From positions 3,588,001-3,652,000 of the forward strand of contig NZ_CP146101.1 in the NCBI RefSeq assembly GCF_037023745.1: 64,000 bases of DNA, given 5' to 3'. The translations under genes and the position numbers were made by a program. The notes below the pieces were generated by a model that did no database searches, was not told where the DNA came from, and saw only the letters and a list, made by a program, of their open reading frames with translations. This document shows positions 23,693 through 44,475 of the stretch, in pieces (within the stretch, counting starts at the first letter, position 1; each line of letters begins with the position of its first letter). Source of the DNA: Streptomyces sp. SCSIO 30461. Its GTDB lineage: Bacteria > Actinomycetota > Actinomycetes > Streptomycetales > Streptomycetaceae.

Positions 23693-24816
23693 GCACGAGC
23701 CCAGCGAAGGAAGTCGGCACCACCGAGCCGGATCTGCTCTACTCCGAGGCCGAGGCCGATCTGCGGGCCGCCGTACGGGACCTGCTCGGCGACCGCGCCG
23801 ACCTCCAGGCCACCCTCGCCGGCATGGAGGCCGGGGATCCCTACGACCCGGCGCTCTGGCAGGCCCTCGCGGCCGGTATGGGAGCCGCGGGGCTCCTGGT
23901 ACCGGAGAAGCTCGGCGGACAGGGGGCGAGCCACCGCGAGGCGGCGGTGGTGCTGGAGGAACTGGGCCGGGCCATGGCCCCGGCGCCGTACCTCACCAGC
24001 TCGGTCATCGCCACCGAGACGCTGCTCGCCCTCGCCGGGCAGGCCGGGCCGGAGGGCGCGGCGACGGCGGAACTGCTCGCGGAGACAGCCGCCGGGCGGA
24101 CCGTCACCGTACTCGCTCTGCCGCTGTCCGCCTCACCCGGCGCGGAACCGCCCACCGGCCCGGCCGTGACCGCTGTCGCGGACGCGCGGTTGGCCGATGT
24201 GCTGCTGGTGTACAGGCCCGACGGCCTGTACGCGGTACGGCGTGCGGACGCCCAGCTCACCCCGCAGCTCGCCCTCGACCTCACTCGCCCGCTCGCCACC
24301 GTCGCCATCGCCGGCGGTACGTCCGGCACCCGGCTCGCCGGTACAGGCACCGCACGGGCCGCCGTGCAACGGGGCCTGCTCACCGGCGCCGGTCTGCTGG
24401 CATCCGAGCAACTGGGCATCGCCGAGTGGTGCCTTGAGGAAACCGTGCGGTACACACGCGAGCGCCACCAGTTCAACCGCCCCGTCGGCTCCTTCCAGGC
24501 GCTGAAGCACCGTATGGCCCGGCTGTGGCTGGAGGTGGTGAACGCCAGAGCCGCGGCGCGAAACGCCGCCGACGCGCTCGCCACCGGGAGCGATGACGTG
24601 GCGCTCGCCGTGTCCGTCGCACAGGCCTTCTGCTCCCGGGCCGCCGTCCACGCCGCCGAGGAGTGCGTGCAGTTGCACGCGGGCATCGGCATGACCTGGG
24701 AGCATCCCGCGCATCTGTACCTGAAGCGCGCCAAGTCCGACGAGCTCGCGCTCGGCACACCCGGCCGCCACAAGGAGCTGCTCGCGGCACTCGCCGACCT
24801 GCCCGCCCCCCGATAA
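23689..24816 (+). CDS. Acyl-CoA dehydrogenase (second of pair)
   Basis: A 375-residue member of the same family but more diverged. The central flavin motif seen in its partner is replaced by a loose Ala/Thr-rich stretch. The C-terminal half keeps RYTRERHQFNRPVGSFQALKHRMARL and the LHAGIGMTWEHPAHLYLKRAK block. Such a pattern fits a heterotetrameric alpha2beta2 dehydrogenase in which the subunits share FAD and active sites (as in FadE pairs of mycobacterial sterol catabolism); that is an inference. It starts at an ATGA overlap with the first dehydrogenase. Confidence 0.9.
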   Translation: MSTSPAKEVGTTEPDLLYSEAEADLRAAVRDLLGDRADLQATLAGMEAGDPYDPALWQALAAGMGAAGLLVPEKLGGQGASHREAAVVLEELGRAMAPAPYLTSSVIATETLLALAGQAGPEGAATAELLAETAAGRTVTVLALPLSASPGAEPPTGPAVTAVADARLADVLLVYRPDGLYAVRRADAQLTPQLALDLTRPLATVAIAGGTSGTRLAGTGTARAAVQRGLLTGAGLLASEQLGIAEWCLEETVRYTRERHQFNRPVGSFQALKHRMARLWLEVVNARAAARNAADALATGSDDVALAVSVAQAFCSRAAVHAAEECVQLHAGIGMTWEHPAHLYLKRAKSDELALGTPGRHKELLAALADLPAPR

Positions 24817-27948: not shown

Positions 27949-29265
27949 ATGCCCGTAACACCCCGAGCCGCCCCTGGCGGTCCGTTGCGCATGCCCGATT
28001 TCCGTCTTCTGCTCGCCGGTGCCGCCACCGGACAGCTCGGTGCCCAGGTCACCCTGGTGGCTCTGCCACTGGTGGCTGTGCTCGAACTCCAGGCGACCGC
28101 CTTCGAAGTGGGTCTGCTGACAGCCGCCGAGACCGCCGCGTTCCTGCTCATCGGACTGCCCGCGGGAGCCTGGACCGACCGGATGCGCAAGCGGCCTTTG
28201 ATGATCCGCGCCGACGTCGTGCGCGCCGCTGCCATGACCAGCATCCCTCTCGCCGCGGTCGCCGGTGCGCTGACGATGGTCCAGCTGTACGCGGTGGCGC
28301 TGATCACCGGCGTGGCGACGGTCTTCTTCGATGTGGCCCACCAGAGCTACCTGCCCCACCTGCTGCCCAAGGAGCAGCTCGTCGCCGGCAACGGAGCCCT
28401 GGAGACGATCCGCTCATCGGCACAGGTGACGGGGCCCGGACTCGGGGGCGGGCTCGTGCAACTGGTCGGAGCCCACCTCGCCATCGTCGCCGACGCCGTC
28501 GGCTATGCGCTGTCCGCCCTGTTCCTGCTGGGCATCAAGCGGCACGAGGACCCGCCGCAACCGGTGCCGGACGCATCCCTGCGCGAGGACATCGCCGAAG
28601 GAGTGCGCTTCGTCGTACGCCAACCCCTGCTCCGCGTCATCGCACTCACCACCGGCCTCGGCAACCTCTTCGCCGCGGTACTGATGGCCACGCAGACCGT
28701 CTACCTGGTACGGGTACTGGGCCTTGAACCCGGGGCGATCGGACTGGTGCTGTCCGCGTCGGCCGTCGGCGGACTCGCCGGAGCGCTCTGCGCCGGTGCC
28801 ATCGCCGCGCGGGTCGGTCAGGCACGGACGATCCGGCTCTCTCTGCTCGTCACCTCGCCGTTCTCACTGCTGTGGCCGCTTTCCGGCACCGGAGCGGCCG
28901 GAGCCGTCCTGTTCGCCACGGGTTCAGGTGTCGTCTTCTTCGGGGCCGTCGTCTACAACGTCGCACAGGTCAGCTTCCGCCAGACGCTCTGCCCGCCCCG
29001 GCTGCTCGGCCGGATGAACGCCACTCTGCGTTTCCTCATGTGGGGCACCCTTCCGCTCGGTGGACTCCTCGGCGGCATCCTGGCCGACGCCTTCGGCCCG
29101 CGCGCGGCACTCGCCTGCTGCGCCGCGGGAATGCTCGTCGCCCCGCTCCCGCTGCTGCTGTCACCACTGCGTCGGACGCGCGACCTGCCAACGGCCGCGC
29201 ACACCGACGACGACGCGGCGCACGGCGCCGACGCGAAGGAGCACGATCCGGCTCCCACGGGCTGA
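27949..29265 (+). CDS. MFS transporter, probable exporter of the NRPS product
   Basis: A 438-residue protein with about 12 transmembrane helices of the major facilitator superfamily (MFS_3/EntS-like branch). It has the loop 2-3 signature GLPAGAWTDRMRKRPLM and a proline/glycine-rich C-half (GVVFFGAVVYNVAQVSFRQ). Relatives include exporters of catecholate siderophores and macrolides. The position as first gene of the NRPS operon suggests product export or self-protection. The stop is 96 bp before the stand-alone C protein. The ATG at 27949 has GAGGG upstream. Confidence 0.88.
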   Translation: MPVTPRAAPGGPLRMPDFRLLLAGAATGQLGAQVTLVALPLVAVLELQATAFEVGLLTAAETAAFLLIGLPAGAWTDRMRKRPLMIRADVVRAAAMTSIPLAAVAGALTMVQLYAVALITGVATVFFDVAHQSYLPHLLPKEQLVAGNGALETIRSSAQVTGPGLGGGLVQLVGAHLAIVADAVGYALSALFLLGIKRHEDPPQPVPDASLREDIAEGVRFVVRQPLLRVIALTTGLGNLFAAVLMATQTVYLVRVLGLEPGAIGLVLSASAVGGLAGALCAGAIAARVGQARTIRLSLLVTSPFSLLWPLSGTGAAGAVLFATGSGVVFFGAVVYNVAQVSFRQTLCPPRLLGRMNATLRFLMWGTLPLGGLLGGILADAFGPRAALACCAAGMLVAPLPLLLSPLRRTRDLPTAAHTDDDAAHGADAKEHDPAPTG

Positions 29266-29361
29266 ACTCCCGCACCATCGCGATCGGAAGCCCACCCGCC
29301 CGAAGGCCGACGACCGGATCCACCGGCAGACCACGAGCAGAATCACCCCAGAAGGGATCAC

Positions 29362-30660
29362 GTGTCCAGCATCACAAGCCAGTATCTGGCCCGCTTCCGG
29401 CGACTCGCAGCCGGGGAGGGGGCGGACGCCCCGCTCCCCGTCACCGGAGCCCAGCGCCGCTTCGTACTGGTGCGCTCCCTGGACAGCGCAGGCCGACCCG
29501 ACCTGGTGCCGATGTTCTTCGCCTTCCCACGCGGCACCGTCGACACGGTGCGCCTCGCCGTGGCGGCCCGCCGCCTGGCCGCACTCCACCCCGCCCTGCG
29601 CGCCCGGCCCGCCGTGCTGCGCGGTACGCCCGTACTGCTCCCGGAACCACCGGACGTCCCCGTGGCCATGGTGACCGTCGCCCCCGGCGAGGACACCGCT
29701 TCGGCGCTGCGCCGGGCACTCGCCGACTGGACCCCGCAAGGTCCCCCGATGCGCTTGTTCCTTGCGCAGGACGAGGCACCCGGCGGCGAGGAAGTCCTCG
29801 CCATCGTCCTCGACCACGCCGCCTGCGACGGCCAGTCGCTGGCGCGCATCGTCGGGGAACTGGAATCCGCGTACGCAGGGGCACCGCACTCCGACGAGAC
29901 GAGCCCCGCTGACATCGCCGCCGAGGTGGCGGCGTACCGGGACGCCGTCCTGCTCCAACTGGAGGCCGAGGACCGTGCCTCCTCAGCGGATGCGATGGCC
30001 TACTGGGGCGAGCGGCTGCGCGGCGTACGCGAACAAGCCCCGCCTGCGCGCCCGTGGCCCCCGGCAGCAGGTGCGCTGCCGAGCGGCGCTGCCGAACGGC
30101 GTGTCCCGGCCCCGGCGGCCGGTGTGCCGTTCCCCGATCTGCTCGACGCCTGCCGGGCCGCCGCCGCAGTGTTGTACGGACCGGGCCGCGAGGTGCCGCT
30201 CGGCTACCCCTGGGGCGGGCGCCCACCCGGCGCGGCTCCGGTCATGGGCTGCTTCCTCAACACCGTGGTCTTCCCGGCCACGACCGGCGAGCGCCGCGCG
30301 GACGACTCGACGGCATTCGGCTGGTGGGAGGACCTGGACCGGGCCGACGCGCCCTTCGACGCCGTGGTGCACGCCGCCAGGGCGGCGGGCTCCGGCTGGA
30401 CCGGCCGGCTCGACGGACTGCTGACGGTGGACGACACCCAGCGGCGCCCGCTGCTCAGCCTCGGCGGTGTGACCGGCCGGGAGACACATGTGGACGGCAG
30501 ACCCGTGCGCGGCCCGTTCGCGGTCTCCGTCACCCACGGGCCCGTGCTGCACCTGCGCATGGTGTGGGACCGCGCCGTCCTGGACGACGACCGTGCCGAC
30601 CGCGCCTTCGCGGCACTGGCCGAGGCGGTCGCTCCGACGCCCGCGGGCACCGCCGGCTGA
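29362..30660 (+). CDS. Stand-alone NRPS condensation-domain protein
   Basis: A 432-residue single condensation-like domain. The active-site motif reads DHAACDG instead of HHxxxDG: the second, catalytic His and the Asp-Gly are kept, while the first His is Asp. Family landmarks are present: an N-terminal PVTGAQRRFVLV box, AYWGERLRG before the mid-domain, and MGCFLNTVVFPA in place of the usual VGxFVNTLPLR. It may supply in trans the condensation step that the two A-T proteins downstream lack, or it may acylate or terminate the peptide. GTG start with GAAGGGA upstream. Confidence 0.85.
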   Translation: MSSITSQYLARFRRLAAGEGADAPLPVTGAQRRFVLVRSLDSAGRPDLVPMFFAFPRGTVDTVRLAVAARRLAALHPALRARPAVLRGTPVLLPEPPDVPVAMVTVAPGEDTASALRRALADWTPQGPPMRLFLAQDEAPGGEEVLAIVLDHAACDGQSLARIVGELESAYAGAPHSDETSPADIAAEVAAYRDAVLLQLEAEDRASSADAMAYWGERLRGVREQAPPARPWPPAAGALPSGAAERRVPAPAAGVPFPDLLDACRAAAAVLYGPGREVPLGYPWGGRPPGAAPVMGCFLNTVVFPATTGERRADDSTAFGWWEDLDRADAPFDAVVHAARAAGSGWTGRLDGLLTVDDTQRRPLLSLGGVTGRETHVDGRPVRGPFAVSVTHGPVLHLRMVWDRAVLDDDRADRAFAALAEAVAPTPAGTAG

Positions 30661-30906
30661 GCGCCGCCGACCGGGTCGAGCCGCTGAGTTCCGCAGGTTG
30701 ACCGCCACAAGGCCGTCGCACCGGCCTTCCGCGGCCGACTGTCCGTCGACCCACCGACCACCGTCCGGTCCGGGCCGAAGACCACCAGAAGACCACCACC
30801 CGACAGCCGGGCCATGCCGCGCGACCCGCGGACCGCCCGCTGGACCACGCCGGGCACAACCGTGCCCCGGCGAACAGAACCGACCCGACAACCTCAGGGA
30901 TCGCCC

Positions 30907-33900
30907 ATGCTTCCCCTCTCCTCCTCGCAGGAGATCGTCTGGCTGCACGAACAGGTGCACACCGGCAGCCGCGCGTACAACTTCACCGGCGCACTGGACC
31001 TGTACGGCAGCCTCGACGCCGAAGCCCTGCGCAAGGGGCTGGCCGCCACTCTCGACCGGCACCCGGGACTGCGCCTCGAACTCGTGCCCGTCGAGGGCGC
31101 GATGCCCGGACAGCGGGTGGCCGAGAGCTGCGCACCGCGTCTGCGCACCGTCGACCTGAGCGGCGAGAAGGAGCCCGAGGCGGCGTTCGAGCGGCTGCTG
31201 CGCACCGAAGCCGAGACACCGCTCGACACCTTCGAGGCACCGCTGCTGCGCTGGACCCTGGTCCGGCTCGCGCCGGAGCACCACCGACTCATCCATGTCG
31301 AGCACCACCTCATCCACGACGGCCACTCGCTCGCGATCCTGCTGGACGACGTGTTCCGTACCTACCGGGGCCATGTGCTGGGCGAGCCGGTCACCCTGCC
31401 GCCCGCGTCCTCGTACGCCGACCACGTCCAGGCCAAGGCCCGCGCACCCTTCCCCGCCGAGAGCCTCGACTTCTGGACCGGAGAACTGCGCGATCTCGCC
31501 CACGACATGCCGCTGCCCGGGGTGACCCGCCCCGGCGCCCGGCGCAGGCACCACGGCGGGCAGCTGCGCCAGTCCATCGGCGCCGACCTGGCCGGGCGGC
31601 TCAGGGAACACGCGCGGTCGAGGGGACTTACCCCGTTCGCCACCCTGCTCGGGCTCTTCGCCGAACTGCTGCGCCGCCACAGCGGACGTTCGCAGATGGT
31701 GATCGGCACCGCGGTCGGCAACCGCCCGCAGGGCTTCGAGGACGCCGTGGGGATGTTCGTCAACACCATCCCGCTGCCGCTCAGGCTCGACCCCGAGAGC
31801 CCCGCCGAAGACACCATGGACGAGGTGACCGACACTCTCTTCCGGGCACTCCCGCACCAGGAGGTGCCGGTCCAGGAGCTCACCCGCGCCCTCGGAATGC
31901 ACACGTCGGGCGCCGACAACCCGCTCTTCAGCGTCATGTTCAGCGCCCATGACGCCCCGCTGCCCGAGATCGACGTCCCGGGCCTGGAGATCACTCTCTT
32001 CGAGGGCTTCAACACCGGCACCACCCGGTTCGACCTGGACGTGGTGCTGCTGCCGGACGACCGGCGCGGCGTCACCCCCCGTCAGGGCGCCCCGGGAATG
32101 ACGCTGGTATGGGACTACGACGCCGACCTGCTCGGCGAGGACGTGGCCAGGCTGCTCTCCGGACGGTTCCTCGACCTGCTGCGGTCCTATCTCGACGAGC
32201 CGTCCGCGGCCCTGGCCGACCTCGCGCCTGCGCACCCGCAGGACGCCGGCTCCGCACCTCTGCAGCGGCAGATGACAGCCGGATCGCCCGAGCCGCTCGA
32301 TCCGACAGCCGCTCACGACCCGAGCCTACCCGCGCTGCTGATCGGCGCCCGCCGCCTCACCTACGGGGATCTGAACGCCCGGGTCGAGAGCCTCGCGAGT
32401 CGACTGCGCGAAGCGGGAGTGACGCCCGGTCAGCCGGTGGCCGCCGTACTGCCCCGAGGCCTGGACTCGGTCACCACCCTGCTGGCCTGTCTGCGAACGG
32501 GAGCGGTGTACTGCCCGCTGTCGCCATCCGATCCGACGGAACGTATCGAACTGCTGCTGAAGCGGCTCGCCCCGGCCCTCGTCCTGACCTCGGCCGGAAG
32601 TCAGGTCACTGTGCCCGACGGGCTGCCCACGGCCACGCCCGACGCTCCCGAACTGCCCCGTGCGCACCGCGCCGATGTCGTTCCGGGAGCCTCGTACATC
32701 ATCCACACCTCGGGCTCCACGGGGATTCCCAAGCCGGTCGCCGTCGGGCGAGCCGCGCTGGAGCATCACATGGTCGCCGCCGCCGAGCGCTTCGGCCTGG
32801 CCGCCGGAGACCGGGTGCTGCTGTTCGCCCAGCCGTCCTTCGACGTGGCCCTTGAAGAGGTGCTGCCGTCGCTGCACGCCGGAGCCTGCCTCGTCGTGCC
32901 CGGGCACGAGGTGCCCACCGGCGCGGAGCTGACCGAACTCCTGGGCGCCGCCCGGGTCACCGTCGCCAACCTGCCGACCAGTTACTTCCTCGCCACCCGC
33001 GAGGACATGCGGCCCGCGCTGCGCGCTGGTGAGTGGGAGCCGCGGCTCCTGGTGCTCGGCGGGGAACGGCTGCCCGCCGATGTGCTGCGCGACTTCCTGA
33101 ACGACACCGAGGCCACCGTGCTCAACGTGTACGGCGTCACCGAGGCCGCCATCAGCTCGACCGCCCACGAGATCGACCGCGACCGGCTCGCCCAGGGCGC
33201 CGAAGTCCCCCTCGGTGTCGAACTGCCCGGCGAGCGGGTGTACGTCCTTGATGCCCACCGCCGTCCGCTGCCACCCGGCGCTGTCGGAGAGCTGGCCATC
33301 GCGGGTCCGGGCCTCGCCGAAGGGTATGTGGGCAACCCCGAGGCCACGGAAGCCCGTTTCGTGACCACCGACGCGCTGGGCGGTGAGCGGGTCTACCTCA
33401 CCGGCGACCTCGGCTACCGCGGGCTCGACGGACTGCTGCACTTCCTGGGCCGCCGGGACAACCAGGTCAAGCTGCGCGGCCACCGCATCGAACTGGAGGA
33501 GGTGGAGGCGGCCGCCTCAGCGGCGCTCGGCGGCCGCTCCTGCGCGGTCGTGCTCGACCGGGAGACCCCCGGCGGCCCCCGGCTCGTCGGTTTCCTGGAG
33601 AGCGTCCCCGACACGGGCGGGCACGGGGAATGGGACGAGCAGGCCCTGCACACCGAGCTGAGCCAGCGACTGCCCGCCGCCCTCGTACCGGCCCGCTGGG
33701 CCAGGCTCGGCACCATGCCGACACTGGCCGGCGGAAAACCGGACCGGGCGGCGCTGGGCCGCATGGCCGCCGCGCTCCGGCCCGCGGAACCCGCGCAGCC
33801 GTCGGCGTCCGCCGCGTCCGCCGACCCGGTCGAAGACGCATCGGACCTGCCCGCCGATCCGATGACGGCCCTGCTCGCCGAGGGCTGGCGCGAAGTGCTC

Positions 33901-34095
33901 GGGCACAGCACCTTCGACCGGAACTCGCACTTCTTCAGGACCGGCGGCCACTCGCTGCTCGCGGCGCAGCTCGCCGCATGGCTGGAGCCGCGGCTCGGAC
34001 AGCGCCCGCCGCTGCGGCTGCTCTTCCAGAACCCGGTGTTCGCCGACCAGGCCGTCGCCCTCGCGGCCACCGCCACCACCTCGACGGAGTCGTGA
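30907..34095 (+). CDS. NRPS module C-A-T
   Basis: A 1062-residue single-module nonribosomal peptide synthetase. The C domain (about 1-430) has an intact HHLIHDG at 133-139 and GMFVNTIPLPL. The A domain (about 455-975) has HTSGSTG (600-606), NVYGVTEA, YLTGDLG, NQVKLRGHRIE and GGKPDR with the A10 lysine. The carrier domain has FFRTGGHSLL with phosphopantetheine Ser1016. Eight-odd specificity-pocket positions read by eye are D-V-E-N-V-G-V-I-S, which I cannot match to a common amino acid. The FDVALEEVLPSLHAG A4 region also differs from typical NRPS A domains. There is no epimerisation or thioesterase domain. It overlaps the next gene by one base. Confidence 0.93.
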   Translation: MLPLSSSQEIVWLHEQVHTGSRAYNFTGALDLYGSLDAEALRKGLAATLDRHPGLRLELVPVEGAMPGQRVAESCAPRLRTVDLSGEKEPEAAFERLLRTEAETPLDTFEAPLLRWTLVRLAPEHHRLIHVEHHLIHDGHSLAILLDDVFRTYRGHVLGEPVTLPPASSYADHVQAKARAPFPAESLDFWTGELRDLAHDMPLPGVTRPGARRRHHGGQLRQSIGADLAGRLREHARSRGLTPFATLLGLFAELLRRHSGRSQMVIGTAVGNRPQGFEDAVGMFVNTIPLPLRLDPESPAEDTMDEVTDTLFRALPHQEVPVQELTRALGMHTSGADNPLFSVMFSAHDAPLPEIDVPGLEITLFEGFNTGTTRFDLDVVLLPDDRRGVTPRQGAPGMTLVWDYDADLLGEDVARLLSGRFLDLLRSYLDEPSAALADLAPAHPQDAGSAPLQRQMTAGSPEPLDPTAAHDPSLPALLIGARRLTYGDLNARVESLASRLREAGVTPGQPVAAVLPRGLDSVTTLLACLRTGAVYCPLSPSDPTERIELLLKRLAPALVLTSAGSQVTVPDGLPTATPDAPELPRAHRADVVPGASYIIHTSGSTGIPKPVAVGRAALEHHMVAAAERFGLAAGDRVLLFAQPSFDVALEEVLPSLHAGACLVVPGHEVPTGAELTELLGAARVTVANLPTSYFLATREDMRPALRAGEWEPRLLVLGGERLPADVLRDFLNDTEATVLNVYGVTEAAISSTAHEIDRDRLAQGAEVPLGVELPGERVYVLDAHRRPLPPGAVGELAIAGPGLAEGYVGNPEATEARFVTTDALGGERVYLTGDLGYRGLDGLLHFLGRRDNQVKLRGHRIELEEVEAAASAALGGRSCAVVLDRETPGGPRLVGFLESVPDTGGHGEWDEQALHTELSQRLPAALVPARWARLGTMPTLAGGKPDRAALGRMAAALRPAEPAQPSASAASADPVEDASDLPADPMTALLAEGWREVLGHSTFDRNSHFFRTGGHSLLAAQLAAWLEPRLGQRPPLRLLFQNPVFADQAVALAATATTSTES

Positions 34096-36119
34096 TGACC
34101 GAGAGCCTTGACCTCCCGAACACCCCGACGCACCGGACCACCGCAGACTGCGCCACCTCAACCTCCATCTCCACCCCCGCCGCGACCGCTGGCGACGGCG
34201 CGGCGCTCAGCATCGCCCATGGGGCCGCCCCCGGTGGCGCCGGAGTGCTGGCACTCTTCGAGGAGTGGGTCCGCCGCAGCCCGGAGGATCCCGCCGTGAT
34301 CGACGGCGCCCACACCTGGACCTACGGGGACATCGACGCCGCCGCCACCAAGGCCGCCGCCGCACTCGGCGACCGGGTGCGCCCCGGGGACCTGGTCGGT
34401 GTCTGCCTCGACCGCTCGGCCGCCCTCGTCGTCACCGCGATCGCCTTGGCCCGGATCGGCGCCGTCTATCTGCCGCTCGGACCCCGCCCGGGACAGCGCC
34501 GCACCGACGCCGTCACCGAGGATCTGAACGTCGTCTGCCTCATCGGCGACCCGCAGGTGCTCCCGGCGCGCCACCAGTCGGCCGACACCGCCGACCATGT
34601 CGTCCTGCCGCTGCCCGCCGAAGGCGCCAACACGGGTGGCTCCGGCACCGCGGTCATCGCCGCCTTCGCCGCTCCGGGCGCCGGGGCCCGGAAGGCACCC
34701 GATGAGGCGTTCTACGCCGTACTGACCTCAGGCTCCACCGGTCGGCCCAAGGCCGTCGCCGTCGCCGAATCCGCGCTCGGCACCCTGCTCGACTGGTACC
34801 GCCGAGAGATGGGGCTGGGCCCCGGCGACCGGCAGTCGCTGCTCATCGGAGTCGCCTTCGACCCCCATCTGATGGAGCTGTGGGCCGGGCTCACCTCCGG
34901 CGCCGCGCTCGTCCCCGCTCCGGACGATGTCCGCTGGGACTCCGCCGTACTGACCGACTGGTGGCGGGATGCCCGGGTGACGGTCAGTGTCGGTGCCACC
35001 CCGATGATCGAGCCCGTGCTGGACCGCCCCTGGCCCCAGGACCTCGCACTGCGCCATCTGATCGTGGGCGGCGACCGGATGCGCCGCCGCCCCGGCGGCG
35101 ATGTCACCGCCACCGTCCACAACGCCTATGGTCCGGCCGAGGCCACCGTCGTCACGACCACTCACGCCATGACGCGTTCGGACGCCCGCGCGGGCGAGCA
35201 GACTCCGCCGCCGATCGGCACCCCTGTGCCGGGCGCGACCGTGGTCGTCACCGACGGCGAAGGCAACGCCGTCCCGCGTGGTACGGACGGCGAACTCCTG
35301 ATCGGCGGCAGTTGCCTGGCACTCGGCTATCTGGACCCCGAGCTGACCGCCCGCCGCTTCACCGTCCCGCACCCCGCTCTCGACCTGCCCGGAGCCGGTC
35401 GGCTCTACCGCACCGGTGACCGGGTGCGGATGACCGCGGACGGCAGCATCGAGTTCCTCGGCCGCCTGGACGACCAGGTGAAGATCAGCGGTGTCCGTAT
35501 CGAACCGGCCGAGGTGGAAGCCGCGTTCGAGCAGGATCCCTCGGTGCGCAGCGCGGTGGTCGTTGCTCCCCGCACGCCGGACGGCCGGACCCGCCTCGTC
35601 GCGTATGTGCGGCCGACAGTGGGCGCGGCTCCCGGCTCAGGCGCACTGCTGGCGGCGGTACGGGCCTGGCTTCCCGAACAGGCAGTGCCGTCCGACGTCC
35701 GGATCGTGGCGAACCACCCCCTGGACGCCAACGGCAAGGTGGACCGCGCCGAGCTGACCCGGCTGGCAGCGGCCGAAGTCTCGGGCACCGGCGCCACGAC
35801 CGGCGCCACGACCGGCGCCACGACCGACGCCGCCCCGACCGCGCGGTCCGAGGCGGGGCCGCCCGCCGACGCCACCCCCGACGAGTCGCTGGTGCTTCAC
35901 GCGGTGCGGGACCTGCTGAGCCGTCCGTCGGTCGAGCTCGCCGACAACTTCACCGACCTGGGGGGCACGTCGGTCCAGGCCGCACGGCTGCTGACGGCCA
36001 TCGAGCGGGAGTCCGGAGTACGCCTGCGGGCGCCGCAGCTGCTGCGCCAGCCCGACCTGGCGGCCGTGGCCGCCCTGATCGGCCGGCTCCGTACCGGCGT
36101 GCGGCAGCCGGGGGCCTGA
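34095..36119 (+). CDS. NRPS A-T didomain protein (no condensation domain)
   Basis: A 674-residue stand-alone adenylation and carrier protein. The A domain (about 50-560) shows LTSGSTG (210-216), NAYGPAEA, YRTGDRV, DDQVKISGVRIE and NGKVDRAEL with the A10 lysine. The carrier has the variant LGGTSVQA with Ser626. The specificity positions appear to be D-P-M-V-I-G-A-V-V, not a code I can assign. A linker of GATT repeats joins A and T. Lacking C, it must hand its aminoacyl group to a C domain on another protein. It starts inside the stop of the C-A-T gene and abuts the next gene with no gap. Confidence 0.92.
   Translation: MTESLDLPNTPTHRTTADCATSTSISTPAATAGDGAALSIAHGAAPGGAGVLALFEEWVRRSPEDPAVIDGAHTWTYGDIDAAATKAAAALGDRVRPGDLVGVCLDRSAALVVTAIALARIGAVYLPLGPRPGQRRTDAVTEDLNVVCLIGDPQVLPARHQSADTADHVVLPLPAEGANTGGSGTAVIAAFAAPGAGARKAPDEAFYAVLTSGSTGRPKAVAVAESALGTLLDWYRREMGLGPGDRQSLLIGVAFDPHLMELWAGLTSGAALVPAPDDVRWDSAVLTDWWRDARVTVSVGATPMIEPVLDRPWPQDLALRHLIVGGDRMRRRPGGDVTATVHNAYGPAEATVVTTTHAMTRSDARAGEQTPPPIGTPVPGATVVVTDGEGNAVPRGTDGELLIGGSCLALGYLDPELTARRFTVPHPALDLPGAGRLYRTGDRVRMTADGSIEFLGRLDDQVKISGVRIEPAEVEAAFEQDPSVRSAVVVAPRTPDGRTRLVAYVRPTVGAAPGSGALLAAVRAWLPEQAVPSDVRIVANHPLDANGKVDRAELTRLAAAEVSGTGATTGATTGATTDAAPTARSEAGPPADATPDESLVLHAVRDLLSRPSVELADNFTDLGGTSVQAARLLTAIERESGVRLRAPQLLRQPDLAAVAALIGRLRTGVRQPGA
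35787..35831 (+). repeat. 12-bp in-frame repeats in the A-T linker
   Basis: Three perfect copies of ACCGGCGCCACG (35787-35798, 35799-35810, 35811-35822) and a partial fourth encode TGAT units between the adenylation and carrier domains. They make a flexible, possibly length-variable linker. Confidence 0.85.
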
Positions 36120-38024
36120 ATGTCCGTCATCGACCCGTACACCCACACCTCCCCGAAGGACGGCCCCGTGCCCACTTCCCGTACCGACGCGGCCACGGCC
36201 GTGGCCACCGCCGACGTCGACCCGTCAGGGGAACAGGTACGCGGCGGACTTCCCGCCCTGGTGGCCCGGCACGCCGGGGCCACCCCGGACGCGCTGGCCG
36301 TCGCCGACGGCGACACCACACTCACGTACGCCCAGTTGGACACCCAGGCCCGCGTCCTCGCCGCCCACCTCCGCGAGCGCGGGGTGCGCCGCGGTGACCG
36401 GGTGGCGCTGCTGATGCCTCGGTCGGCGCAGACCATCGTGGCGCAGCTCGCCCTGTGGTGGGCCGGCGCCGTGTGCGTACCGCTCGACCCGGCACACCCC
36501 CGGCCGCGTACCGAAGCCATGGCCGCCGACGCCCGGGTGACCCTCACCATCGGCGACCACAAGCTCCTGGAGTCGGCCGCGCCCACCGGCCCCATCCTGC
36601 CGCTGCCCGGAGAGCCGCAGCTCACCGTCGGCGCCATGACCGCAGCCGAGGCCGATCCGGACCCGGCGGCGTTCATCATGTTCACCTCGGGCTCCACCGG
36701 CCGCCCCAAGGGGGTGACCGTCCCGCAGCAGGCCGTCGTGGAACTGGTGACCAGCACCTCCTATGTCACCATCACCCCCCGCGACCGTGTGCTGTTCCAC
36801 TCGCCCATGACCTTCGACGCGTCCACCTTCGAGGTGTGGGGCGCGCTCGCGGCCGGTGCCGCCGTGGTCGTGTGCACCGTGGAGCGGCCCTCGTTCGAGG
36901 ACCTGGCCCAGCACATGGAACGGCACGGCGTCACCGTCGCGTTCCTGACGACCGCGCTGTTCCACCAGCTCGCCGCGCGCCGCTCACGGGTGTTCTCGGT
37001 GCTGCGCGGCGTCGTCGTCGGAGGCGAGGCCCTCGCCGCGCAGCACGCCCGCGAAGTGCTGCGCGCCTTCCCCTGGCTGGAGCTGGTCAACGGCTACGGG
37101 CCGACGGAGACGACCACCTTCGCCACCGCGCACCGGGTCACCACGGCCGACTGCGACGGGCAGATACCCATCGGCCGCCCCATCGCGGGCGCCACCGTCC
37201 ACGTCCTGGACGCGGAGGGTGCCCCGGTCGCCGACGGACAGCGCGGCGAACTGTGGATCGGTGGCAGCCGGCTCGCCCACGGCTACGCGGGACAGCCCGA
37301 GCTCACCGAGGAGCGCTTCGTCGAGCACACCGTGCACGGACGGCTCTACCGCACCGGCGACCTCGTCTCCGCGCGGCCTGACGGTGTACTCGACTTCCAC
37401 GGACGCACCGACGACCAGGTCAAGGTGCGCGGCTTCCGCATCGAACCGGGGGAGGTCGAACACGCCCTGCGTGAGCAGTCCGACGTCGACGACGCGGCGG
37501 TCACCGTCCACCGGCCCGGTGACGGCGACGCACGCCTGGTCGCCTTCGTGGTGGCCGCACCCGGTCCGGTGCCGCGGGCGGACGTGCTGCGGGACCGGCT
37601 CGCCGCGGTGCTGCCCGCCCATCTCGTACCGGACGGCGTGACCGTCGTGGACCGGTTGCCGCTCACCACCAGTGGAAAGGTGGACCGGCGTGCGCTGACC
37701 GCATGCGCGGGCGCGGCAGGGGCCGAGGCACCGGCCGCACCGATGAGCCCGCTGGAGCATGCCGTCGCAGAGATCTGGAGCCGGGCCATCGGCACCGATG
37801 TGACCCGGCCCGACGCCGACTTCATCGCACTCGGCGGCCACTCGCTGCTCGCCCTCGTCGTCACCGACGACCTCCGTGAGGAACTGGGCGTGGAGCTGGC
37901 ACTCGCCGACTTCTTCGGCGCCCCGACCGTGGCCGGGCAGGCCGCCCTGGTCGAGCGCGCGCTGCTTGCCGCACACAGCGATCTTCACCCGGACGACGCA
38001 GCGGAGCACACCGATGAGCACTGA
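36120..38024 (+). CDS. NRPS A-T didomain protein, Val/Ile-like pocket
   Basis: A 634-residue adenylation and carrier protein. FTSGSTG is at 188-194, then FDASTFEVWG, NGYGPTETT, YRTGDLV, DDQVKVRGFRIEP and TSGKVDRRAL. The carrier LGGHSLLA has Ser575. The specificity positions read D-A-F-F-V-G-G-T-F, close to published valine and isoleucine codes, so a branched aliphatic residue is the best guess. It has no C domain. Its ATG directly follows the previous stop and its 3' end overlaps the next gene by 11 bases, so the synthetase genes are translationally coupled. Confidence 0.92.
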   Translation: MSVIDPYTHTSPKDGPVPTSRTDAATAVATADVDPSGEQVRGGLPALVARHAGATPDALAVADGDTTLTYAQLDTQARVLAAHLRERGVRRGDRVALLMPRSAQTIVAQLALWWAGAVCVPLDPAHPRPRTEAMAADARVTLTIGDHKLLESAAPTGPILPLPGEPQLTVGAMTAAEADPDPAAFIMFTSGSTGRPKGVTVPQQAVVELVTSTSYVTITPRDRVLFHSPMTFDASTFEVWGALAAGAAVVVCTVERPSFEDLAQHMERHGVTVAFLTTALFHQLAARRSRVFSVLRGVVVGGEALAAQHAREVLRAFPWLELVNGYGPTETTTFATAHRVTTADCDGQIPIGRPIAGATVHVLDAEGAPVADGQRGELWIGGSRLAHGYAGQPELTEERFVEHTVHGRLYRTGDLVSARPDGVLDFHGRTDDQVKVRGFRIEPGEVEHALREQSDVDDAAVTVHRPGDGDARLVAFVVAAPGPVPRADVLRDRLAAVLPAHLVPDGVTVVDRLPLTTSGKVDRRALTACAGAAGAEAPAAPMSPLEHAVAEIWSRAIGTDVTRPDADFIALGGHSLLALVVTDDLREELGVELALADFFGAPTVAGQAALVERALLAAHSDLHPDDAAEHTDEH

Positions 38025-41000
38025 CACACCCGATGCCGCGGGGCAGATCGCCCGCCAGGAGGAACTGCTGCGCCGGGCGCGTGCCCGGGCCTCGGGCCGC
38101 GGCACCACCACCCCCGCCACAGGTGCGGCCGGTACGGGCGGGGAAGCGGCGGCAACGGCCCAGCAGGGCCCGGTCCCGCTGTCGCACGCCCAGCGCCGCA
38201 TGTGGCTGATGGACCGGCTCGGCCACGCCGGAGCCTCCTACAGCGTGCCGTTCGCCACCCGGCTGCGCGGCCCGCTCGACGCGGGTGCACTCGCCGGCGC
38301 ACTCACTTCGCTCGTACGCCGCCACGAGATCCTGCGTACCCGCTACGGGCAGCGGGACGGCGAGCCGCACCAGGAAGTGCTGGACGCGCCCACGGCGATC
38401 GCCGTACCGGTCAGGGACTGCGCCGAGACGGACGCCCCGGCCCTTCTCGCCGACGAGGCGCGCCGCGTCTTCGACCTGTCCACCGGAACGGTGCTGCGCG
38501 CCCTGGTGCTGCGGCACGGTGAGCAGGACCACACCGTGCTGCTGACCTTTCATCACATCGCCATCGACGGCGGCTCACTGGACACGGTGGCACGAGAGCT
38601 CGCCGACCTCTACGCGGCGGCCGTCGGGGGCGGCGAACCGGCCGTGGGGCCGCAGCCGCCGCAGTACGCCGACTTCGCACGCGGGGAGCACGCCGCCGCG
38701 GCCCGGACGGAGCAAGGCCTGGCCCACTGGACCGAGCGGCTCAGCGGGGCCAAGGCCCCGCGCCTGCCGCGGCCTCGGACCTCAGGGGCAGGCCCCCGGC
38801 GCTCCGGCACACACACAGCCCCGATCGACGGCCGGTTGCCCGAGGCGCTGCGCGGTCTCGGCGGTGAACACCGCGCCACCTTGTTCACGGTGGCGCTCAC
38901 GGCCGCCTTCGCCGCCCTGCGTGGGCTCACCGGAGACGACGACCTGGTCATCGGGATCGCCGGCACCCACCGCCGCGGCGCGGCCATGCGTGATCTGGTG
39001 GGCCTGTGCGTCAACACCCTTCCGGTACGGGTGGACACCTCCGGCGACCCGGAGTTCACCGAACTCCTCGCACGGGTGCGGGAAGCGTTGCTGGAGGCCC
39101 AGCAGTACCGTGACGTCCCCTTCGATCTCGTCCTGGAGCGGCTCGGCGCCGCGGCGCGTGACGCCGACGGCACCGCGCTGGTCCGGGTGACCTCCGATGT
39201 CATCGGGGAACCGGCCATTCTCCGGCTGCCCGACACGGTGGGGGAGTATGTGGACGTCGAGACCGGTGAGGCCAAGTTCGACCTCTCCTTCGGCCTGGTC
39301 ACCTACGGTCAGCCGGCCGCCCTTGTGCAGTACGCCGGAACCGCGCTGGACGACACGACCGCGGCGGACCTCTGCGCGCGCTACGCGGCCCTGCTGGCGG
39401 CCGTGACCACGGAGCCGTCGCTGCGGTTGTCGCAGCTTCCCGGCGGTACACCGGCTCGTACGACCGGTACTGCGACCGTTGCGCCTCCCGGCAAACCGGC
39501 CGACGCGGCAGTCGGCAACGGGGCCGACCGCGGCGCCGGCGAGCCGGCCCGTGACACCCACCCGGCCGAGGTTCTGCTTCGCGCGCATCCACGGGTCGCC
39601 GACGCCCATGTGGCCGAAGCGCCCGGCGGCGCGCTGCTGGCGTACGCCGTGCTGTGCGACAGCGTGGGCCCCACCCCCCACGACCTGCGCGCCCGGTTGC
39701 GCACGACCCTCCCGCCCGAGTCCCTGCCCGCCTCGGTCACCCTGCTGGACGCCATGCCCCGCACGTCCGAAGGGGCGGTCGACCAGAGCAGGCTGCCGGG
39801 CATGCCCGCTGCCGCGTCCGGCCCCGCCGCACCGCGGGGGCCGCGCGCCGAAGCCGTCGTCGAGGGCTTCACCGCGCTACTGGGGCGGACTCCCGAGCCG
39901 GACGACGACTTCTTCGCCCTCGGCGGGCACTCCCTCGTTGCGGTGAAACTCGCCGAACGCCTCCGGTCGGCGCTGAAACTGCCGCTGACCGGACTGGACA
40001 TCCTCCAGGCCCGTACGCCTCGGGCGCTCACCGCACTGTTGGACTCCCGCGAGGGCGAACGGACCGCGGCGGCGAAGGCCCAGGCGGTACCCGGCGCGGT
40101 GTTCGGGCAGCCGCGGCCGAGCCGCCCCGGCACGGTCCTGGTCACCGGGGGCACCGGCGGGGTCGGCGCGTACGTACTCCGTGAACTGGCCGCTCAGGGA
40201 AGGCCGGTGCTCGCCTTGGCCCGACCCGAGTCCGCACACCTCGTCGCCGGGGACGGCGTGGAGGTCATCGAGGGGGATCTCGCCGACCCTTCGGCACTGC
40301 GCGCGGCGGTCGCCGCGGCCGACGCGGTCATCCACGCGGCCTGCACCTTCACCCGTCCCGAAGTCGACCTGGCCGCCATGGAGGCCATGGTCGACGGGTG
40401 GCGGCGCGGTCCCTTCGTCTTCGTCAGCAGCGTCGATGCCTATGGGCACCCGGCCGGCGACCGGGTCGCGGAGGAGTCCGCACCGGGAGAGCCGCTCAGC
40501 CCCTATGGGCGCGGCAAGCTCGACTGCGAGGCACTGCTGCTGCGTGCGGCAGGGACCGAAGGCCGCGGCGGGGCCAGCGCCGTACGCTCGCCGATCGTCT
40601 GGGGCGCGCACGACCGGTTGCGCGACCAGTTGCGTTGGGGAGCGACCGGCCTGCTCTACCAGGCGGCCGCGGAAGGACGTCCGATCGCGCTGCCGAAGCC
40701 CGGCACCGGCGGACACGACTGGTACGGCGTCGCCTGGGTGCATGCCGCGGCCCTCGCCAGGGCGGTGACAGCCTGCCTGGACGCGCCCGTGCACGGCGTC
40801 GCCAACGCCGTCAGCGGACATGTCTCCTGGCATGAACTGGCCACCGATCTGACCGGACTGCTGGGCAGCGCGAGTGTCGTCACCGAGACCGTCGAGGTCC
40901 ACCAGGACCTCGACCACCGCTGGCACTACGACAGCCGCCGCCTGGCCCGCCCGCTGCGGGCGGAGCCGGGAGAGGACCGGCGAGCGGTCCTGGCCGCCAT

Positions 41001-41031
41001 GATCGACGGCGGCACGGCGAGCGCCCGTTGA
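38014..41031 (+). CDS. NRPS C-(A-tail)-T-SDR/reductase protein with degenerate adenylation remnant
   Basis: A 1005-residue synthetase. The C domain (about 50-470) has an intact HHIAIDG (180-186) and GLCVNTLPVRV. Residues about 517-595 align with only the C-terminal subdomain of an A domain (HPRVADAHVAE, LRARLRTTLPPESLPASVTL); the whole N-terminal subdomain is missing and the A10 GKVD is GAVD, with Ala588 for Lys. The carrier has LGGHSLVA with Ser640. The end (about 706-1000) is an extended SDR domain with TGGTGGVG (711-718), FVSSVDAYG and YGRGK (831-835). It resembles thioester reductases but also NDP-sugar epimerases. The carrier must be charged in trans, and release may be reductive. Confidence 0.9.
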   Translation: MSTDTPDAAGQIARQEELLRRARARASGRGTTTPATGAAGTGGEAAATAQQGPVPLSHAQRRMWLMDRLGHAGASYSVPFATRLRGPLDAGALAGALTSLVRRHEILRTRYGQRDGEPHQEVLDAPTAIAVPVRDCAETDAPALLADEARRVFDLSTGTVLRALVLRHGEQDHTVLLTFHHIAIDGGSLDTVARELADLYAAAVGGGEPAVGPQPPQYADFARGEHAAAARTEQGLAHWTERLSGAKAPRLPRPRTSGAGPRRSGTHTAPIDGRLPEALRGLGGEHRATLFTVALTAAFAALRGLTGDDDLVIGIAGTHRRGAAMRDLVGLCVNTLPVRVDTSGDPEFTELLARVREALLEAQQYRDVPFDLVLERLGAAARDADGTALVRVTSDVIGEPAILRLPDTVGEYVDVETGEAKFDLSFGLVTYGQPAALVQYAGTALDDTTAADLCARYAALLAAVTTEPSLRLSQLPGGTPARTTGTATVAPPGKPADAAVGNGADRGAGEPARDTHPAEVLLRAHPRVADAHVAEAPGGALLAYAVLCDSVGPTPHDLRARLRTTLPPESLPASVTLLDAMPRTSEGAVDQSRLPGMPAAASGPAAPRGPRAEAVVEGFTALLGRTPEPDDDFFALGGHSLVAVKLAERLRSALKLPLTGLDILQARTPRALTALLDSREGERTAAAKAQAVPGAVFGQPRPSRPGTVLVTGGTGGVGAYVLRELAAQGRPVLALARPESAHLVAGDGVEVIEGDLADPSALRAAVAAADAVIHAACTFTRPEVDLAAMEAMVDGWRRGPFVFVSSVDAYGHPAGDRVAEESAPGEPLSPYGRGKLDCEALLLRAAGTEGRGGASAVRSPIVWGAHDRLRDQLRWGATGLLYQAAAEGRPIALPKPGTGGHDWYGVAWVHAAALARAVTACLDAPVHGVANAVSGHVSWHELATDLTGLLGSASVVTETVEVHQDLDHRWHYDSRRLARPLRAEPGEDRRAVLAAMIDGGTASAR

Positions 41032-41069
41032 GCCGACGGGCGGCACCGTCGGATGGGGCGGAGTCGTCC

Positions 41070-41110
41070 GCGCGGCGCCCGGTGACGTCTGTCGCCACCG
41101 GGCGCCGCGC
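41070..41110. terminator. Bidirectional hairpin terminator
   Basis: Perfect 15-bp arms at 41070-41084 and 41096-41110 with an 11-base loop, between the last NRPS gene and the converging thioesterase gene. It marks the 3' boundary of the synthetase operon. Confidence 0.8.
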
Positions 41111-41135
41111 GCTCAGGGCACATTCGCCGCGCGGT

Positions 41136-41894
41136 TCACGACAACGCGCCCCTGAGGCGTTCGCTGAACTCGTCCGGCACGTCGTTGAAGTAGAAGTGAC
41201 CGCCCTGGAAGACATGCACGTCGGCCGCGGCGGTGGTGTGCTCCGTCCAGGCCGCGGAGTCGGCGAGCGGCACCCGGGGGTCGCTGTCGGGAGCGAAGAC
41301 CGAAACGGGGCAGTCCAGCTTCACATCCGTACCGGCCCGATACGGCTCGATCATCTCCAGATCGGCACGGATGGCGGGCAGGATGAGCTCGGCCAGCTCC
41401 GGATGGTCGTTCAGTACGTCCTGGGTGCCACCGAGCCCCATGATCCCGGCGAGCACACCTGCGTCGTCCTGGTGGCGCAGCCCCATGTCGACGCGCCGGG
41501 ACGGCGCCACGCACGCGGAGGCGATCAGTCGCTCCGGGCCACGGCCCATGGCCCGCTCCGCGCGCAACGCCACCTCGAAGGCGGTGACAGCCCCCATGCT
41601 GTGGCCGAAGAAGTACGAGCGCCTCCCCAGCAGCGGCTGCAACGCCTCGTGGATCCCGTCCGCCAAGGCGTCCATGGATGTCAGCGGCGCATCGGCGAGC
41701 CTGTCGGCCCGGCCGGGGTACTGCACCACCGAGACCTGGACATCCGGCCCAGCCGCCCTCAGGGCCGCCGAAAGGGCGTAGTAGTAGCTCGCCGAACCGC
41801 CTGCGTGCGGGAAGCACACCAAGTGCCGCTCCGCCGCCGGCACCGGGTGGAATACACGGACCCACTCACTGCTGTCCCGCCCTGCCTGCCCCAT
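41136..41894 (-). CDS. Type II (editing) thioesterase of the NRPS locus
   Basis: A 252-residue alpha/beta hydrolase of the TEII family. It has FPHAGG at 28-33, GHSMG with nucleophile Ser99, a mid-domain lid rich in hydrophobic residues, Asp in VFAPDSDPRVP and a C-terminal GGHFYF His. TEIIs remove wrong or stalled acyl groups from carrier proteins, here probably from the four T domains next door. It lies on the opposite strand, converging on the NRPS genes, so it is transcribed separately. The ATG at 41894 has GGGAGGGA upstream. Confidence 0.92.
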   Translation of the reverse strand: MGQAGRDSSEWVRVFHPVPAAERHLVCFPHAGGSASYYYALSAALRAAGPDVQVSVVQYPGRADRLADAPLTSMDALADGIHEALQPLLGRRSYFFGHSMGAVTAFEVALRAERAMGRGPERLIASACVAPSRRVDMGLRHQDDAGVLAGIMGLGGTQDVLNDHPELAELILPAIRADLEMIEPYRAGTDVKLDCPVSVFAPDSDPRVPLADSAAWTEHTTAAADVHVFQGGHFYFNDVPDEFSERLRGALS

Positions 41895-42084
41895 GTCGCT
41901 CCCTCCCGTTCCCATCTGGCTCGAGCTTTTCACAGCATGATCGGAAGTGCCTCGTGATCGGAGACCATGTTCCCCGGACGACGTCCGGTCGGCCGGGGTG
42001 CACGGTCGCCTCCCTCCTGCTTGGTTGCGCAGGGTCGGTATCAGGCGGACTCTGGACCTGATGATGCAGGCCGGTGAGGGCACC

Positions 42085-44475
42085 ATGAGCTACGTGAGGA
42101 AGGCGACTGGGGACATCGACTTCCGTGGTCCGCTGGACGTCACGAAGGCCGCCACGTGCGTACTCGATGCCCATGACACGGTGATCGGCTGGAGTTCCGC
42201 GGCCAGGGAACTCCTCGGCTACCCGACCGAGGAGATCATCGGCCGCCCCGTCACCACCTTCCTGGAACCGGCTGCTCTCGGGGACGCCTCAGCGGGCCGA
42301 CACCGACGCGACGCATGCGTCGGCGTGCACCGCGACGGCCACCGGGTGCGCCTCGTCGCCACGTTCTGCCCACTGTCCGGCGCCGGGCCGGCGCAGCGGA
42401 TTCTCGTGGCGGCGGAGTACGCACCGCTCCGGGATTGGGAAACCCAGCTCGCGATGCTCCAGGGCCTTGCCACGCAGTCACCCGTCGGCCTCGCCACGTA
42501 TGACACCGACCTCCGCCTCCTGTGGTGCAACGCCGTCTCCGAGGTCGAACTCGGGCAGCCGCTCGAAGAGGTACGGGGCGAGTTGGCCGGCGACCTCTAT
42601 CCTCTCGGTGGCTTTGTGACGCCGGGCTATCCGGAGACCCTCGAGGCGGTGATGCGGCAGGTGCTGGAGACGGGTGAACCCATCCTGGACCTGCACTTCC
42701 GGGGCGAGCAGCCCAGCGAGCCGGGCCGTGAGCACATCTGGTCCTGCTCCTACTACCGGATCCAGGGCACTGACGGTCAGGTGTTCGGGCTCTGCGAGGA
42801 CGCGTTCGACATCACGGACCGCTACCGGGCGCAGCAGCAGCTGAACCTGCTGGTGGAAGCCGGCCGAAGGGTCGGTACGACCCTGGATGTGATCGTCACG
42901 GCCGATGAGCTGACGGCGGTGGCGGTGTCCGGCTTCGCCGACCTGGTCGAGGTCGATCTCGCTCCCGCGGTGCTGGACGGCGAGATGCCCGACGCCACGG
43001 GCCCGGCGGGCACCGAACTGATGCGCACGGCCGCACGCTCGGCCACGTCCGGCGGCACCACCGGCACCGCGGTCGCCCGCAGCCGCCCGCCCTCGCCGGT
43101 GGACCATCCGCCGGGCTCGCCCCAGTACCGCAGTCTCTCCTCGGGCGGACTCGTCCTCGTGGACGACACACTCGTCGTGCCGCTGCGGGTCGGCGGCAGG
43201 GCGATCGGGCTGGTCACCTTCGTACGCCGCGACGGATCCGACCTCTTCGACAGCGGTGCCGTCGCGCTCGCGGACGAGCTGGTCACCCGGGCAGCCGTGT
43301 CGATCGACAACGCCCGCCGCTACACCCGGGAACGCTCGGCGGCGCTGGCCCTCCAGCGGCAGCTGCTGCCGCGGCACCTCCCGGCGAACTCCGCGGTGGA
43401 CGTGGCGCATCGCTATCTGCCCACCGACGACCTGAGCGGGGTGGGCGGCGACTGGTTCGACGTCATCCCCCTGTCCGGTACCAGAGTCGGGCTGGTCGTC
43501 GGGGACGTCGTCGGTCATGGGCTGCACGCCGCGGCCACCATGGGACGCCTGCGTACGACGGTCCGTGCCCTCGCCCCCACCGACCTGCCGCCCGAAGAAC
43601 TGCTGAAGCGGCTGGACGACCTCGTGGGGCAGTCGGCGGTCGACGTCGGCGCCGACGCGGGCGCCTTCACCGGTGATGACGACGTGGCCACCGGTGCCAC
43701 CTGCCTCTACGCCGTGTACGACCCCGTCTCACGGCGCTGCACCATGGCCCGTGCCGGGCACCTGCCACCCGCGATCGTGCACCCGGACGGGCAGGTCGGC
43801 TTCCCTGATCTGCCGGCCGGGCCCCCGCTCGGCCTCGGCGGGTTGCCCTTCGAATCCCATGAGCTCGAACTGCCGGTCGGAAGCCTGATCGCTCTCTTCA
43901 CGGACGGGCTGGTCGAGGCGCGGGACCGTGACATCGACAAGGGTCTGGAGACCCTGGGCAGAGTCCTCAGCGAGGGTGCCGACTCCCTGGAGGAGCTCTG
44001 CGACCGCGCCATCTGCGAGCTCCTTCCGGGCAGCATGACCACGGACGACACCGCTCTCCTGCTGGTCCGCACCCGCGAACTCGACAGCGCAAGGATCGCC
44101 ACCTGGAACCTTCCGGCGGAGCCGCTCGCCGCAGGGCAGGCCCGGGAACTGATCGCGGAACGACTGCGTGACTGGGAACTGGAGGAGCTGGTGTTCCCCA
44201 CCGAGCTCATCGCCAGCGAACTGGTCACCAACGCGGTCAGACACGCCGTGGGGCCGCTCCATCTGCGGCTCATCCTGGACCGCACCCTGGTCTGCGAGGT
44301 CGCGGACGGCGGCCACACCGCACCCCATCTGCGGCACAGCGCGGACGACGACGAGGGAGGGCGCGGGCTGTTCATCGTCGCCCAGCTCGTACTGCGCTGG
44401 GGGACGCGCTACAGCGACTGGGGCAAGGCGATCTGGACCGAACAGTCGCTGCCTCGGGTGCAGCGGCGAGGCTGA
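42085..44475 (+). CDS. PAS-GAF-SpoIIE phosphatase-HATPase signalling protein
   Basis: A 796-residue soluble signalling protein, common in Streptomyces. The N-terminal 260 residues hold two PAS modules (DTVIGWSSAARELLGYP; YDTDLRLLWCNAVSEV). A GAF-like region follows (about 265-430). The PP2C/SpoIIE phosphatase domain has VGGDWFDVIPL, GDVVGHGLHAAATM and MTTDDTALLLVRT. A C-terminal HATPase_c anti-sigma type kinase domain has ELVTNAVRHA and GGRGLFIVAQL. It would dephosphorylate or phosphorylate anti-sigma-factor antagonists in response to a sensed signal. Starts at 42061 or 42064 are possible; 42085 has GTGAGGG nearby. No sigma factor gene adjoins. Confidence 0.9.
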   Translation: MSYVRKATGDIDFRGPLDVTKAATCVLDAHDTVIGWSSAARELLGYPTEEIIGRPVTTFLEPAALGDASAGRHRRDACVGVHRDGHRVRLVATFCPLSGAGPAQRILVAAEYAPLRDWETQLAMLQGLATQSPVGLATYDTDLRLLWCNAVSEVELGQPLEEVRGELAGDLYPLGGFVTPGYPETLEAVMRQVLETGEPILDLHFRGEQPSEPGREHIWSCSYYRIQGTDGQVFGLCEDAFDITDRYRAQQQLNLLVEAGRRVGTTLDVIVTADELTAVAVSGFADLVEVDLAPAVLDGEMPDATGPAGTELMRTAARSATSGGTTGTAVARSRPPSPVDHPPGSPQYRSLSSGGLVLVDDTLVVPLRVGGRAIGLVTFVRRDGSDLFDSGAVALADELVTRAAVSIDNARRYTRERSAALALQRQLLPRHLPANSAVDVAHRYLPTDDLSGVGGDWFDVIPLSGTRVGLVVGDVVGHGLHAAATMGRLRTTVRALAPTDLPPEELLKRLDDLVGQSAVDVGADAGAFTGDDDVATGATCLYAVYDPVSRRCTMARAGHLPPAIVHPDGQVGFPDLPAGPPLGLGGLPFESHELELPVGSLIALFTDGLVEARDRDIDKGLETLGRVLSEGADSLEELCDRAICELLPGSMTTDDTALLLVRTRELDSARIATWNLPAEPLAAGQARELIAERLRDWELEELVFPTELIASELVTNAVRHAVGPLHLRLILDRTLVCEVADGGHTAPHLRHSADDDEGGRGLFIVAQLVLRWGTRYSDWGKAIWTEQSLPRVQRRG

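Follow-up and report, generated by a model that had tools for sequence, protein, structure and literature searches.

A non-collinear peptide synthetase locus of Streptomyces sp. SCSIO 30461 belongs to the antipain, MAPI, chymostatin and omicsynin family

What does a nonribosomal peptide synthetase (NRPS) locus make when its domains are not arranged collinearly, and is such an arrangement new? The question is raised by a cluster in the genome of Streptomyces sp. SCSIO 30461. Within the window (the whole stretch of 64,000 nucleotides analysed here, 3588001-3652000 on the 8.05 Mb chromosome), six co-directional genes at 27949-41031 encode a major facilitator superfamily (MFS) exporter, a stand-alone condensation (C) protein, a condensation-adenylation-carrier (C-A-T) protein, two A-T proteins, and a terminal protein in which a C domain, an A-domain remnant, a carrier and a short-chain dehydrogenase/reductase (SDR) domain follow one another. 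The first-pass annotation had listed these domains together with a type II thioesterase, had counted three A domains for four carriers and two A-T proteins without a C domain, and had concluded that condensation must occur in trans; domain searches bear out the list and the count, a fourth A domain having been lost, and the conclusion about condensation was right. The annotation had also recognised no characterised pathway with this order, and here it was mistaken. The cluster is a further member of a family already described, whose normal order is the very one that looked unfamiliar, and its product is very probably a protease inhibitor of the antipain/MAPI/chymostatin/omicsynin type, a ureido tetrapeptide ending in an aldehyde.

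In the published account of the omicsynin (omn) cluster, five NRPS genes carry just three A domains; the NRPS is called highly discrete, and the cluster is homologous to those of deimino-antipain and chymostatin (PMC12783407). Antipain, chymostatin and MAPI are likewise described as ureido peptide aldehydes of NRPS-mediated synthesis (PMC10548850). In omn, position 2 (Arg) is proposed to belong to OmnB, and the penultimate, flexible position 3 (Val/Ile/Leu/Met) is assigned to OmnE. The OmnF reductase belongs to the extended SDRs but is short (about 300 aa), and its deletion abolishes the aldehydes (PMC12783407). The window's order can be mapped to this scheme, with the stand-alone C protein as A, the C-A-T protein as B, the A-T proteins as D and E, and the terminal C-T-reductase (C-T-R) protein as F; the letters A and D are tentative, given by order. 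Ureido formation and reductive release, which others have reported for relatives, would by analogy carry over to the window.

The first-pass annotation had proposed a synteny comparison across Streptomyces. We searched for the stand-alone C protein in 392 genomes of the genus, our own included, and found a close homologue (E ≤6e-49) in 39 of them; the next best match was at 2e-23. A scan of named genomes retained 80 of 114 confirmed loci, of which L021-L082 form the family set (62 named loci, C gene 49-76% identical), while L083-L100 (23-33% identity, C domains of other NRPSs) were excluded from the counts. Genes for stand-alone C, C-A-T, A-T, A-T and C-T-R stand in that order, each at least in part, in 59 of the 62 named loci, and the other three (L042, L069 and L077) end at contig ends; in many named loci the stored flank truncates the last gene, and in L034, L049 and L053 the second A-T gene is matched in two pieces. 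The MFS gene adjoins the stand-alone C gene in 61 of the 62, the exception (L080) beginning within the C gene. A full five-gene set was also present in 18 of 20 additional loci, which share species with the named set and hence are not independent. In L117 (genome G105), one of these 20, the exporter, stand-alone C, C-A-T and first A-T genes are present, the second A-T and terminal genes are missing, and another NRPS (C-T; A domain) adjoins the cluster. At L114:5379-8063 (minus strand) the terminal gene matches the C domain only and no carrier or reductase parts were found downstream; a broken gene, an assembly error and a variant are candidate readings.

Identity over the aligned parts, given in the order MFS, C, C-A-T, A-T, A-T and C-T-R, is 85, 76, 84, 77, 82 and 73% to S. 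olivochromogenes A53 (L021); 76, 64, 73, 68, 76 and 66% to S. noursei B-3066 (L047); and 69, 50, 67, 56, 62 and 51% to S. rimosus NRRL WC-3904 (L078). In a tree of 60 C-A-T proteins that of the window pairs with L021. The flanking genes were searched for an empty site in 41 genomes (7 and 16 with a match, our own included), and in no other genome that had both were the two neighbours close together. One family member, L027, sits on what its record title calls a plasmid of 1.07 Mb (Streptomyces nigrescens HEK616 plasmid SNP1); a reference title names 'nigrescens WT-27' as an alpha-MAPI producer.

EHHLIHDG, the motif in the C domain of the C-A-T protein, conforms to EHHxxHDG, the signature of ureido-forming C domains, which is reported to be unique to them within MIBiG (PMC11212132). 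The full signature was present in all 59 readable named loci of the 62 examined (52 EHHLIHDG, 7 EHHLVHDG), and its E, H, H and H residues are conserved in all 20 additional loci. We compared it with other C regions of the same genome, fetching 20 regions that represent 23 of its 24 other Condensation matches; none of the 19 readable ones has EHHxxHDG (L133 gave no readable motif), and the nearest motif is EHHAILDG (EHHxxLDG) in L136.

The stand-alone C protein had no Pfam match at 1e-3. However, a profile of 13 sequences (the window's and 12 relatives) matches solved C domains, including that of tyrocidine synthetase 3 at 4e-13. In its site, LDHAACDG, two residues of the usual HHxxxDG motif, namely the second His and the Asp, are retained, and both are kept in all 61 readable named loci (62 examined) and in 20 of 20 additional loci; the Gly of the motif is replaced by Glu in 12 of the 61 and 4 of the 20. 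If the C-A-T protein's C domain makes the urea and the terminal C domain the last bond, the bond onto the position-3 A-T protein is left to the stand-alone C protein, and we therefore propose that it acts in trans between positions 2 and 3.

The terminal module retains only a small C-terminal part of its A domain, in which the A10 lysine is replaced by Ala. This lysine is likewise absent from all 48 readable named loci (62 examined) and all 16 readable additional ones (20 examined). Of the A domains in the window, that of the second A-T protein is the nearest to the relic (36% over 85 residues). The distance between C active site and carrier, readable in 66 of 82 loci, is 339-374 residues in L065, L066, L067, L080, L116 and L119 and 426-494 in the other 60; because it is shorter in those six, the relic seems to have been lost there. 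Most of the members read retain it, and its apparent loss falls in part of one clade. Since the terminal module lost its A domain, its carrier must receive its residue in trans from one of the three A domains on other proteins. Where the annotation had inferred carrier sharing, the shared element is probably an A domain, one A domain serving two carriers, and not a carrier. That the relic is a docking platform for another protein's A domain, and that the donor (the Phe or the Arg protein) decides between a MAPI-type and an antipain-type product, is a speculation to which we give a rather low probability. At the end of the protein, the terminal carrier is followed by a short extended SDR, for which the best SDR family is PF01370. 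Classical NRPS thioester reductases are extended SDRs of the NAD_binding_4 type (PF07993), and PF07993 was not among 13 Pfam families at 1e-3; the reductase domains of the family are reported to be distinct from those known earlier (PMC12783407).

The A domains have the codes DVENVGVISK (C-A-T), DPMVIGAVVK (first A-T) and DAFFVGGTFK (second A-T). The last, which we take to be Val-like, is proposed to select Val for position 3. By homologous position alone, DVENVGVISK is proposed to select Arg for position 2, and the protein with DPMVIGAVVK to load Phe for position 1. The predicted product would then be Phe-CO-Arg-Val-(Phe or Arg)-al. Whether Arg is cyclised to the capreomycidine of the chymostatin subtype appears to depend on an additional gene. 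A gap of about 1.2 kb separates the C-A-T and A-T genes in 11 of 59 loci (L064-L067, L071-L074, L078-L080), which form one clade in the C-A-T tree, and in L078 it contains an acyl-CoA-dehydrogenase-like gene. At a threshold of 1e-60, homologues of this insert were found in 4 of 4 gap-bearing genomes tested and in 0 of 9 without the gap, our own included. From its position we take the insert to be a putative OmnC/AnpI-type arginine cyclase, and this fits the report that S. rimosus ATCC 10970, for which a deimino-antipain-like cluster is published, makes chymostatin (PMC9045324). Acyl-CoA dehydrogenases encoded at 22628-24816 of the window were tested as possible arginine cyclases and rejected: they share 29% and 26% of residues with the L078 insert. 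As the presumed cyclase gene has no match at 1e-60 in our genome, the window is expected to give plain Arg at position 2, and hence an antipain-type or MAPI-type product. Antipain and MAPI occur together in extracts (PMC11212599, PMC11865988), and both have been linked to an antipain cluster (PMC11212599).

On this division of labour, the first A-T protein would load Phe, and the C domain of the C-A-T protein would join it head to head with its own Arg, taking the carbonyl from bicarbonate. Acting in trans, the stand-alone C protein would transfer the Phe-CO-Arg unit to the Val held by the second A-T protein, and the terminal C domain would then join the chain to the final residue, bound to the terminal protein's own carrier; loaded in trans, this carrier would give a MAPI-type product with Phe and an antipain-type product with Arg. 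The SDR-type reductase domain would free the chain as an aldehyde that traps Ser/Cys proteases, and the MFS protein would export it.

The thioesterase fits less well into this picture. Although present, as annotated, it does not look part of the conserved set and appears to be an optional neighbour: in the 20 additional loci, which extend about 4-5 kb beyond the terminal gene, no counterpart lies directly beside the cluster (1e-6). One match of 34% identity occurs in L117, further off and past the other NRPS; the best match in ten other genomes is at most 48% identical; and in the five of these ten whose cluster position is known (G218, G347, G064, G210 and G137) all thioesterase matches are at least about 90 kb from the cluster. 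With no counterpart beside the relatives' clusters and low identity elsewhere, its candidacy as a cluster gene is unsupported.

How far could the locus depart from this account? The stand-alone C protein is the most divergent C domain, with no Pfam match and an unusual DHxxCDG site, and might be given the urea, leaving the C domain of the C-A-T protein an ordinary amide. We consider this very unlikely, since in every readable member the ureido signature sits in the C-A-T protein and is missing from the stand-alone C protein. Decay into a silent cluster, to which the truncated terminal A domain without its lysine might point, is hardly credible: the same loss is seen in all readable relatives, including L078, from a species that makes chymostatin, and the other motifs read intact (all carrier serines, the A10 lysines of the three whole A domains, and the Tyr and Lys of the SDR) in open frames. 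Unlikely, though less so than these two, is that the same machinery yields a congener not yet described, through slightly different A domains or a thioesterase that alters the outcome. The window's first A-T and C-A-T codes differ from those of L047 (DPLVVGAVVK and DVENVGAVTK), family members are reported to be promiscuous with many congeners (PMC12783407; PMC11212599), and the thioesterase was not seen beside relatives' clusters; however, all three window codes recur in other members, among 59 readable named loci in 29 (C-A-T), 3 (first A-T; L050, L053 and L056) and 36 (second A-T).

Several observations weigh against assigning the locus to ureido aldehyde synthesis. The product itself is a prediction from genes, and neither DVENVGVISK nor DPMVIGAVVK is, to our knowledge, the textbook code for Arg or Phe, respectively. 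L078, the member whose species is a published producer, shares just 50-67% identity in its synthetase proteins, two of the 20 additional loci (L114 and L117) are without the full gene set, and the thioesterase has no counterpart beside the clusters of relatives. To return to the first-pass annotation's view of a new, uncharacterised non-collinear pathway, we give it next to no weight: order and domain set are those of the published family, and the ureido signature and SDR release agree with it, so that at the level of architecture this view is largely refuted. The annotation's own refuting condition, a high-identity match to a described cluster over every synthetase gene, is approached by the genome comparison, with 50-67% identity to L078 and 64-76% to L047.

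The features of the locus are collected in the table below. The C-A-T and first A-T genes overlap (TGATG), the two A-T genes abut (TGA then ATG), and the second A-T and terminal genes overlap at ATGAGCACTGA; the last four synthetase genes are therefore probably translationally coupled. As the first-pass annotation had stated, no MbtH protein is encoded among the cluster genes (two copies lie elsewhere in the genome), and a composition-based gene call found no additional gene, and therefore no regulator, between 27949 and 41894. A gene for a PAS/GAF-SpoIIE-ATPase regulator adjoins the cluster at 42025-44475 of the window; two relatives of it (G000:C1:3546380-3548770 and 3679430-3681106; 53% and, over a partial match, 66% identity) lie within a genome stretch of about 135 kb.

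Table 1. Genes and domains of the cluster and the adjoining thioesterase gene, in window coordinates.
Feature	Position	Strand	Evidence
MFS exporter, first cluster gene	27949..29265	+	Pfam MFS_1 5e-36
Stand-alone condensation protein, LDHAACDG site	29362..30660	+	profile match to solved C domains 4e-13
C-A-T protein, OmnB-like	30907..34095	+	Condensation 5e-64, AMP-binding 2e-58, PP-binding 1.5e-8
Putative ureido-forming C domain (Curea) of C-A-T protein, EHHLIHDG	about 30907-32223	+	published Curea signature
First A-T protein, OmnD-like by order	34095..36119	+	AMP-binding 6e-58, AMP-binding_C, PP-binding 1e-9; synteny
Second A-T protein, OmnE-like by order	36120..38024	+	AMP-binding 3e-82, AMP-binding_C, PP-binding 9e-14
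C-(A remnant)-T-reductase, OmnF-like terminal module	38014..41031	+	Condensation 6e-67, AMP-binding_C 4e-6, PP-binding 4e-11, Epimerase/SDR 4e-20; Pfam and NCBIfam
A-domain C-terminal subdomain remnant, terminal module	39568..39774	+	AMP-binding_C 4e-6, no AMP-binding N part
Short extended-SDR reductase domain, TGGTGGVG and YGRGK	40135..40800	+	PF01370 4e-20, motif columns
Type II thioesterase, convergent with synthetase genes	41136..41894	-	PF00975 2e-44

Placing the cluster in this family removes a false lead, since its odd order is one already known to serve for making protease-inhibitor aldehydes. The family also gains a member whose division of labour (ureido C domain, trans-acting C protein, orphan carrier) has been mapped, so that two questions become testable: the identity of the A domain that loads the fourth carrier, and the role of the stand-alone C protein. 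Siderophore, pacidamycin-type uridyl peptide, pepstatin and proteobacterial leupeptin systems were considered and rejected, none fitting four carriers, three A domains and SDR release.

Among known systems, S. noursei B-3066 (L047), which we take to be the deimino-antipain producer strain, has the same gene order at 64-76% identity per synthetase protein, and the presumed cyclase is absent from its genome too; two of its A codes are slightly different, and thioesterase matches in its genome are at most 44% identical. Maxson is said to have dealt with the deimino-antipain/antipain clusters in 2016. S. rimosus (L078) shares gene order and ureido motif with the window at 50-67% identity but has the acyl-CoA-dehydrogenase-like gene between its C-A-T and A-T genes, which the window lacks; its DNA is from strain NRRL WC-3904, whereas the chymostatin product is from another strain, ATCC 10970 (PMC9045324). 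The C domains of syringolin, pacidamycin, anabaenopeptin and SnaA have the same EHHxxHDG site (PMC11212132) on scaffolds that differ from the window's, the likeness being one of published motif alone. The omn cluster of Streptomyces sp. 1647, compared by its published description rather than by DNA (PMC12783407), additionally has the TetR regulator omnR, the arginine cyclase omnC and the separate SDR omnG, none of which was called within 27949-41894; common to both are the five NRPS genes, the three A domains, the roles of OmnB and OmnE, and the short SDR of OmnF.

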